This document shows positions 19,733-26,465 of a stretch of DNA of 32,263 bases, piece after piece. The notes under the pieces were generated by a model that did not search any database, was not told the origin of the DNA, and was given only the letters and a program-made list of their open reading frames with translations. The position numbers and the translations under genes were made by a program. Numbering within the stretch: the stretch's first letter is position 1; every line of letters starts with the position of its first letter. This stretch comes from an uncultured Lachnospiraceae bacterium (GTDB lineage: Bacteria > Bacillota > Clostridia > Lachnospirales > Lachnospiraceae): assembly GCA_946617225.1 (NCBI GenBank), contig CAMOJW010000005.1, positions 1 through 32,263 of the forward strand, in the 5' to 3' direction.

Positions 19733-20030
19733 GCGTTACCGCAGCGGTGAAATAACGAAAAAACCACCGCGGAAACAACGACTCAGCCTCATATCGTTGT
19801 CGCCGCGGTGAAATAATGAAAAAACCACCGCGGAAACAACGACTCGGCCTCATATCGTTGTCGCCGCGGTGAAATAATGAAAAAATCACCGCGGAAACAA
19901 CGACTCAGCCGTATATCGTTGTCGCCGCGGTGAAATAATGGAATAATCACCGCGGAAACAACGACTTGGCCTCATATCGTTGTCGCCGCGGTGAAATAAC
20001 GAAAAAACCACCGCGACGACAACGCCTCCG
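19733..20030. repeat. 61-bp hairpin-repeat array 1 (5 units, edge units diverged)
   Basis: Units start at 19733, 19794, 19855, 19916, 19977: tcgttgtcgccgcggtgaaataatgaaaaaaccaccgcggaaacaacgactcggcctcata. Stem CGTTGT..CCGCGGTG / CACCGCGG..ACAACG with a conserved cg/aa internal loop. Confidence 0.95.
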
Positions 20031-20062
20031 CGAGCTGCCACCAGCAGGCGTCTGTCCCCTGG

Positions 20063-21061
20063 CTACATCATCAGCGGCACATCCGACGCCCCGCCGAAAG
20101 GCACAGCAGACTTATACTTGCTGCAGAGCATCTGGAGAATCCATTCGCAATCCCGCAGATCTAATGGGCTGTCACCGTCCTCACATGTGATCAGAAGATC
20201 TCTGCCGGGATAGATCCCGGCATCGAGGTAGCGGGCGAGTCTTCTCTGTGTGTCCTGCAGGTAGCCGGTCTTGCTGAGCGCGCCGAAGTGCTCCCAGTAT
20301 AGAAGCTTCCCGTCCGGCAGCAGGATCGTGAAATCCGGGCAGAAGACCTGATCTCCCACCCTCAGGATCTGTTCATAGTGAAACGGGATCCGGTGCTCGA
20401 AGAGCCAGTCAGCGATAAAAGCCTCCGATTTGGACCGCACGATGAGGCCGCATTTCGCCCGCACCCGCAGTTCGTTCAGGTGCCGGTCGCTGCATTCATA
20501 GGGTTCCCGGCACCAGTCAGTCATCCATTTTACTGATTCCAGAAGGGCTGGGGCGAGGAGGTCCTTCTCGGCGTGTTGACGGCTGTTCAGCGGGTATTTT
20601 TCTTTATACTGATAATTAGCATCTCGCATGAAGCTGTCCGGGACGGCATTTCCTGATTTTAAGACACGTCTGTTGGCATAATCGATACCGGCAGATATGG
20701 CAGCGACCGCTTCAGACGCCAGGTCAGAAGTCAGAAACAGTAATCCGGCATCCGCCGATGCAGCAGATGTTTCCAACAGCATCTGATCAATAAGACAGAT
20801 CTGGGTTTCCAGCGTTTCCGCCATTTTCAGGTGATAGTCTTTTACAGACAGGTCGGTCGCAAGAGATCTGTTTTTACGGTTTATAACAGTTCCTCCGCTG
20901 CGTGCCCCCTCCTCTCTGTACATCCATTTCACGTAATCGCCGTTCTTCAGAAAAACGATCTTCCCATGTGGGCAGAAATTCAGCTGGTTCCTGTGATAAG
21001 CGGCCTGCTCCGCCATCTCTCTTCTTATCTCGCAAACTCGTTGATCCAGACGCACGTCCAC
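20063..21061 (-). CDS. Hypothetical PD-(D/E)XK-like nuclease; start is GTG (21061 or more likely 21055)
   Basis: 332 aa; SKSEAFIADWLFEHRIPFHYEQIL...FCPDFTILLPDGKLLYWEHFG...ITCEDGDSPLD reads as E...PD...WEH of a PD-(D/E)XK-type fold. taaggaggag upstream. Confidence 0.65.
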   Translation of the reverse strand: MDVRLDQRVCEIRREMAEQAAYHRNQLNFCPHGKIVFLKNGDYVKWMYREEGARSGGTVINRKNRSLATDLSVKDYHLKMAETLETQICLIDQMLLETSAASADAGLLFLTSDLASEAVAAISAGIDYANRRVLKSGNAVPDSFMRDANYQYKEKYPLNSRQHAEKDLLAPALLESVKWMTDWCREPYECSDRHLNELRVRAKCGLIVRSKSEAFIADWLFEHRIPFHYEQILRVGDQVFCPDFTILLPDGKLLYWEHFGALSKTGYLQDTQRRLARYLDAGIYPGRDLLITCEDGDSPLDLRDCEWILQMLCSKYKSAVPFGGASDVPLMM

Positions 21062-21221
21062 TCCTCCTTATGGCGCAATCGCGAACTCAATATACGTTTA
21101 TATGAATTCAAACACAGTATACACGCTTCAGAGGATCAAGCAAAGAGGTCTTCTGTGAAATTAGTATAAACATTTAATTGTTCTATCCCCAGGGCTTGCG
21201 AAAAAGCGCCCCGGTCTCATA

Positions 21222-21456
21222 TCGTTGTCGCCGCGGTGAAAAAATGAAAAAATCACCGCGGAAACAACGACTCGGCCGTATATCGTTGTCGCCGCGGTGA
21301 AATAACGAAATAATCACCGCAGAAACAACGACTTGGCCTCATATCGTTGTCGCCGCGGTGAAATAATGAAAAAATCACCGCGGAAACAACGATTCAGCCG
21401 CATATCGTTGCCGCTGCGGTGATATAAAGGGAAAATCACGAGAGATATAACGACAG
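21222..21456. repeat. 61-bp hairpin-repeat array 2 (3 full units plus 1 degenerate), same family and orientation as array 1
   Basis: Units start at 21222, 21283, 21344, 21405; same stem and actcggcc(t/g)cata spacer as array 1. Confidence 0.95.
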
Positions 21457-26280: not shown

Positions 26281-26465
26281 GTGAATAAACAGCGAGCCGG
26301 GCGACGGAGAATTCGGAGCTTGCTCCGGCATTCTCCGGCATCCGGCGAGCGTCCCTCATGAGGATGGAGCGGAGCGAGGGTATGAAATACCCGAAGCGAC
26401 GCGGGAATCCGAATGAGGGAGCGTCGGGGAAGTCGCGAAGCGACGGCCGACGCGGGTTTATTCAC
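26281..26465. repeat. Palindrome-rich MITE/REP-like element with 10-bp terminal inverted repeats
   Basis: GTGAATAAAC (26281-26290) ... GTTTATTCAC (26456-26465). Internal hairpins CGGAGAATtCGGAGC/GCTCCGgcATTCTCCG, GGGTATgaaATACCC and GTCGCgaaGCGAC nested in GCGTCGG/CCGACGC. Confidence 0.75.

Follow-up and report, generated by a model that had tools for sequence, protein, structure and literature searches.

REP/RAYT systems are the well-known bacterial example of a domesticated enzyme that maintains dispersed intergenic repeats, although what exactly that enzyme does is not known (PMC8049555). In REPIN/RAYT systems, a single-copy, vertically inherited enzyme is accompanied by a population of inverted-repeat elements that it duplicates (PMC8049555). 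The locus described here lies in a 32,263-bp stretch of DNA from an uncultured Lachnospiraceae bacterium (hereafter, the window) and resembles this arrangement in three respects: a single resident, vertically inherited enzyme gene is flanked by cognate repeats; inverted-repeat elements are dispersed in intergenic regions where the enzyme occurs; and there is one half-site type per enzyme lineage. However, the enzyme is PD-(D/E)XK-like rather than HUH/Y1, and its sequence (P0001) has no Pfam match, PF01797 included. Unlike REPINs, the repeat units form tandem arrays with a fixed period of 52-74 bp, typically in 3-7 copies, and one family uses direct instead of inverted half-sites. Spread driven by the enzyme, which belongs to the description of REP/RAYT, is here something that we infer.

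Two other described systems share part of this layout. Type III toxin-antitoxin loci (ToxIN) also place short tandem repeats in an array alongside a gene for a nuclease (PMC8860590); the present locus does not conform to type III, since its arrays lie on either or both sides of the gene and are dispersed genome-wide, its enzyme has a PD-(D/E)XK-like fold rather than being an endoribonuclease of the ToxN kind, and no RNA-level constraint was seen. As in CRISPR arrays, tandem units of about 60-70 bp adjoin a nuclease gene, but here the whole unit repeats (81% mean identity among whole 61-bp units within one array), loops and linkers drift and are not exchanged as spacers, and no cas genes were seen, so that the locus does not qualify as CRISPR. 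The system is apparently undescribed, as the original prediction had supposed: open-access PMC text, a corpus distinct from subscription journals and preprints, yielded no prior description. The pairing occurs at many gut-bacterial loci, including several from isolates, among them array-flanked loci of Butyrivibrio hungatei XBD2006 and Eubacterium sp. MSJ-21 (L211 and L199), and if our reading is true, the arrangement of an enzyme with a dispersed repeat population evolved more than once, this time with an unrelated nuclease, and nature would supply many enzyme/site pairs whose specificity can be read.

The nuclease gene and its flanking arrays

The gene encoding P0001 (20063..21061, minus strand) starts with GTG and specifies 332 aa. 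Searches of Pfam, NCBIfam, and PHROGs found no family matching the protein, and the nuclease family to which it belongs, found at no fewer than 574 loci, has no Pfam or NCBIfam model. PADLOC matches P0001 in the nuclease domain only, through PDC-S68 (E = 9e-23), PDC-S69, and HEAT_CxxC_PDDEXK, which are models of candidate defence proteins with a homologous nuclease domain; however, the match covers no more than some 110 of the roughly 1,220 positions in the profile, and P0001 differs from those proteins in being small and solitary, in its N-terminal region, and in its cognate repeat arrays. An AlphaFold2 model (68 sequences, pLDDT 86.6) places a helix, a beta-hairpin, and long helices ahead of a PD-(D/E)XK-like core that combines the expected alpha-beta fold with an invariant acidic triad (E213, D243, and E257). 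The predicted active-site residues, E213, D243, E257, and H258, fall within segments that are invariant in 68 homologues (V208-R-S-K-S-E213, Y229-E230, P242-D243, E257, H258, and G260). The best-ranked PDB matches include ACE1 (Cas4-like), R2 endonuclease, 2vld, TnsA, and VRR_NUC, all with weak E-values. The structure search found no match for the N-terminal region among solved structures and gave no support to its being an AP2/integrase arm-binding domain.

Taken together, PADLOC, the motif, and the structure model identify P0001 as a predicted PD-(D/E)XK-like nuclease, and no recurrent partner gene was found across the nuclease loci, in keeping with the original prediction of such a protein without a partner. 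The expected active site is present in part: E, PD, E, and H are invariant in the 68 sequences, but the catalytic lysine of the (D/E)XK motif is absent from its usual place, where the sequence reads E257-H258-F259, and nuclease activity is thus not assured. It is possible that K274, nearly invariant in the homologue alignment, substitutes for the canonical lysine.

Nine 61-bp units bracket the gene, five on one side and three plus a remnant on the other, all in plus orientation and with a period of exactly 61 bp; the layout given in the original prediction was thereby confirmed at 19734-21452. The left array, on the 3' side of the gene (19734..20024, plus strand), consists of units at 19734, 19795, 19856, 19917, and 19978, and the right array, on the 5' side (21223..21452, plus strand), of units at 21223, 21284, and 21345 and a degenerate fourth at 21406; the 5' arm of the unit at 19734 is mutated. 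Each unit comprises a 17-bp arm (in the left array, the half-site CGTTRT-NN-CCGCGGTGA), a 13-bp loop, the 17-bp inverted arm, and a 14-bp linker. Folded as the plus strand, single units reach z-scores of -4.8 to -6.2 against dinucleotide shuffles, with 0 shuffles equal, and Rfam at gathering thresholds gave no match at the arrays. Units of the left and right arrays share 88% mean identity, close to the 85% and 90% found inside each array; judged by sequence, the two flanking arrays therefore resemble a single array, either interrupted by the nuclease gene or copied around it. By comparison, arrays of the host genome are about 79% identical to one another (47-bp part). At the place orthologous to the right array, a related genome (G065) has kept a 61-bp array.

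Association of nucleases with cognate arrays

Homologues were gathered from the genus and from one more family, and their intergenic flanks (500 bp or less) were scored for tandem repetition with a period of 45-95 bp; all remaining genes of these stretches, together with stretches picked irrespective of the nuclease, served as controls. An array lies in a flank of 25/53 nuclease genes compared to 70/965 other genes (Fisher p = 9e-14), and on both flanks of eight of the 53 compared to none of the 965 (Fisher p = 3e-11). When only flanks of 150 bp or more are considered, the array rate is 41% for nuclease genes and 9% for other genes. In one respect the contrast is conservative, since the controls include genes that share an intergenic gap with the nuclease; array loci of the host genome (G000), included for holding arrays, also raise the control count. 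A second set comprised 76 usable loci, spread over many genera of Lachnospiraceae and largely independent of the first set apart from a few records from genus genomes already counted; here the figures are 31/76 and 39/337 (p = 2e-8). The original prediction had named homologues without flanking hairpins as evidence against it; homologues with no detectable adjacent array do exist, about half of the total and including all of those in G043, alongside the 25/53 with an array. The nuclease-array link is real, though not universal.

Array sequence changes with the enzyme. Among array-bearing loci, arrays are similar in 14/14 nuclease pairs that are at least 70% identical, not all of them independent because some loci come from the same or near-identical genomes, and in 0/685 pairs below 60% identity; at 62-66% identity the arrays no longer match by blastn. 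Two loci (L068 and L059) whose nucleases are 75% identical have the array motif in common and zero neighbour genes in common, which indicates that the motif goes with the enzyme rather than with the locus.

In the window, 61-bp copies are confined to the two flanks of the gene, so the claim that the repeats occur only there is locally correct; genome-wide it fails. The host genome (2.13 Mb in 201 contigs, 79% complete) holds 64 units, in 14 places among the stretches examined, as counted from genome searches and individual sequence stretches. Only two nuclease homologues were found in it, and the simple reading that arrays mark the gene is therefore wrong. Genome-wide scatter regardless of the gene had also been named as a refuting outcome; the scatter is there, but it is found only where the genome carries the cognate nuclease. 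Across 61 genus genomes, the 61-bp pattern occurs in G000 (64 units), G001 (34), and G065 (31), exactly those with P0001 or an orthologue, and is absent from the other 58 but for one chance match (G019). The 62-bp TTGGGCAC arrays are present in 7/7 genomes whose nuclease shares 62% identity or more with the L059 type (20 matches in G024, 13 in G032, 11 in G013, eight in G084, seven each in G025 and G069, and one in G035), in 2/6 genomes that have no more than a 47-57% relative (a single match in each), and in 0/48 of the remainder. The 70-bp family is found in 3/3 genomes with an L055-type enzyme (92-100% identity), with 35 forward matches in G013, 21 in G003, and four in G084; single chance-level places occur in G065, G068, and G077, and G032 (73% complete) is the exception, having 70-bp arrays without a detected cognate nuclease. 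Dispersed copies of the three array families are thus almost wholly confined to genomes with the cognate nuclease. Common descent of the genomes could account for part of this co-occurrence and makes each family less telling when considered singly; however, the three families have different genome sets, which makes shared ancestry a poor full explanation.

The nuclease is a chromosomal, syntenic, vertically inherited resident under purifying selection. P0001 orthologues, 65-71% identical, occur in exactly two other genomes (G001 and G065) and keep rpe and an antiporter-like gene as neighbours (names by inspection); at six other loci (L143, L148, L149, L152, L154, and L199) the nuclease adjoins metG (name by inspection). 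Its dN/dS is 0.03-0.16, with dS saturated in some pairs, and it often diverges faster than neighbouring genes. No full-length homologues were found in phage, plasmid, and viral collections, where the nuclease domain alone was matched. The dispersed 61-bp arrays, by contrast, seldom lie at sites common to G000 and its relatives. A single site gave a clear test of gain or loss: neither relative has the counterpart of one G000 array (L040) in its orthologous gap, which measures 130-135 bp compared to 895 bp in G000. Array sites turn over, in this one clear case, whereas nuclease loci are stable.

Array anatomy and period classes

The 61-bp period holds for all spacings of every multi-unit array in three species except one of 123, while loops and linkers differ. 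The pooled half-site is CGTTRT-NN-YYGCNGTGA, in which CGTT and GTG are nearly invariant. Arms of other families are built likewise from paired sequences, CTGTCACA/TGTGACAG in the 74-bp family, where the sequence between them drifts, and CGTATGAC/GTCATACG in the 52-bp family. The periods of arrays beside nucleases fall at 52-54, 61-64, 70-74, and 84-86 bp, with the gaps between these classes empty, plus three at 45-47 bp. At 10.4 bp the Rayleigh length is 0.64 with a mean phase near zero, compared to 0.47 or less in randomised sets; the best-fitting period step, about 9.5 bp, is slightly short of a DNA turn. The periods themselves suggest that the discrete classes reflect DNA helical phasing.

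Strong hairpins are found in the 61-bp and 70-72-bp families, and the original prediction, which took the hairpin as the key feature, was right that the 61-bp units fold strongly. It was only partly right, because units of the 62-bp family contain no inverted repeat and fold weakly, and the half-sites within its arrays are direct. That family instead forms a palindrome at the scale of the array, in which about 75-76 bp separate direct units from oppositely oriented ones that come next; the spacing is the same at many loci (e.g., L060 17541-17947 and G024:C46:56184-56584). Between arms of the 61-bp family, compared within arrays, G-T and C-A mismatches balance each other, with no preference for G-U over C-A (p = 0.995) and so no RNA-type strand bias, a pattern that fits independent DNA half-sites and not a transcribed hairpin. 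An RNA hairpin as the general principle was rejected on account of the 62-bp family and the lack of this mismatch bias. As read from the sequences, array anatomy points to DNA sites.

Proposed mechanism and alternative explanations

Given that RAYT membership fails on the defining enzyme and that Y1 transposases do not track the arrays, we propose an analogous but unrelated system. Two marks of RAYT/REPIN systems are nonetheless seen here: a single vertically inherited enzyme gene (syntenic orthologues; dN/dS as above) and, as an association, dispersed repeats that depend on the enzyme (three families, 61 genomes, with G032 as exception). This agrees with the original prediction of a REP/RAYT-like layout around a non-HUH enzyme, now joined by a specific nuclease-array association. 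We think it somewhat probable that a vertically inherited, resident nuclease of the PD-(D/E)XK family is paired here, in the manner of REP/RAYT, with cognate DNA sites that are dispersed. That the nuclease-array pairing is functional seems very likely, and the nuclease probably recognises the arrays directly; whether it also drives their spread is an even call.

According to this proposal, the arrays would be cognate sites made of tandem, evenly spaced bipartite half-sites (here CGTTRT-NN-CCGCNGTGA), which in the 61-bp family would alternate in inverted orientation about 30.5 bp apart. A nuclease oligomer would bind these half-sites on one helix face, probably via its variable N-terminal helix/beta-hairpin/coiled-coil region, and might then nick or cut within or near the array. 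Recombinational repair between repeats would expand and homogenise the array, and occasional ectopic repair would seed arrays in other intergenic gaps. The outcome would be a dispersed array population sustained by a single resident enzyme, a dependence like that of REPINs on RAYT. The broader version, a second, independent REP-like system, is plausible but a little short of probable: it would consist of a large un-named Lachnospiraceae nuclease family in which each enzyme recognises its own tandem array with helical phasing, copies arrays to new intergenic sites by cutting and repair, and keeps lineage-specific repeat populations.

Alternatively, this could be a host-beneficial nucleoprotein array, in which the nuclease domain serves mainly for DNA binding or tethering, and in which the role of the arrays is to organise the chromosome, to insulate genes, or to keep the enzyme poised for defence. 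Purifying selection, long-term synteny, the constant period, and the resemblance of the nuclease domain to the domain at the C-terminus of candidate defence proteins (PDC-S68) agree with it; however, the E, D, E, and H residues are invariant, and array positions differ between close species, which a fixed chromosomal landmark would not do, and we regard this explanation as unlikely. We consider it quite unlikely that the arrays act as RNA, with transcribed hairpins that guide, process, or neutralise the nuclease in the style of a type III toxin-antitoxin or guide-RNA array. Such a role would suit the strong hairpins of the 61- and 70-72-bp families and arrays that adjoin the gene, often on its 5' side, but not the weakly folding 62-bp units without an inverted repeat, the unbiased arm mismatches of the 61-bp family, the copies dispersed far from the gene, or the discrete period classes, which point to DNA.

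It is also conceivable that the arrays are a separate repeat family and that the nuclease gene merely hitch-hikes, with a tendency to lie in, or insert into, intergenic regions rich in arrays. Several array families do cluster in composite islands (L040-L045), and the two arrays of the window resemble one split array; yet this account leaves unexplained both the sequence-specific co-divergence of nuclease and array and the confinement of dispersed arrays to genomes with the cognate enzyme, and it is the nuclease loci that are stable and the dispersed arrays that move, making it improbable. Finally, the arrays could be ordinary REP/BIME elements that are mobilised by a RAYT (Y1/HUH) transposase encoded at another place in the genome, and their layout and dispersal do resemble those of REPINs (PMC8049555). 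However, Y1_Tnp (PF01797) occurs in 44/61 genus genomes irrespective of arrays, the host genome, with its 64 units at 79% completeness, shows just a 49-residue Y1_Tnp fragment, and the presence of a RAYT cannot account for the link to a different enzyme. This possibility is very improbable, and a RAYT mobiliser of the 61-bp arrays was rejected, as Y1_Tnp does not track them. Besides the homologues with no detectable adjacent array, the exception of G032, and the missing lysine, the pairing of a resident nuclease with cognate DNA sites has against it that the host genome contains 52-, 63-, and 71-bp array families without an assigned nuclease.

The 71-bp arrays of the host genome have arms of the CCGGCGGA..TCCGCCGG type and were found at L052 15468-15831, L111 11835-12023, and L112 18598-18772; the second nuclease homologue, at L052 7849-8859, is possibly their candidate cognate enzyme. 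Arrays of 52/53 bp with GGCCTAC arms share intergenic gaps with 61-bp arrays in composite repeat islands (L041, L042, L043, and L045). At 25-414, the window itself contains another tandem array (5.6 copies with a period of 63 bp, inverted arms AGTCAYTCC..GTAATGAC), and similar arrays recur in L048, L108, and L112. A large conserved dyad element, GGGGCAGCTGTCAAGGA..TCCTTGACAGCTGCCCC, lies at about 514-640 of the window and about 7128-7262 of L040, and directly adjoins arrays of different families. In addition, a Clostridiales-1 RNA (RF01699, 75.5 bits) is present at 26284-26462 of the window.
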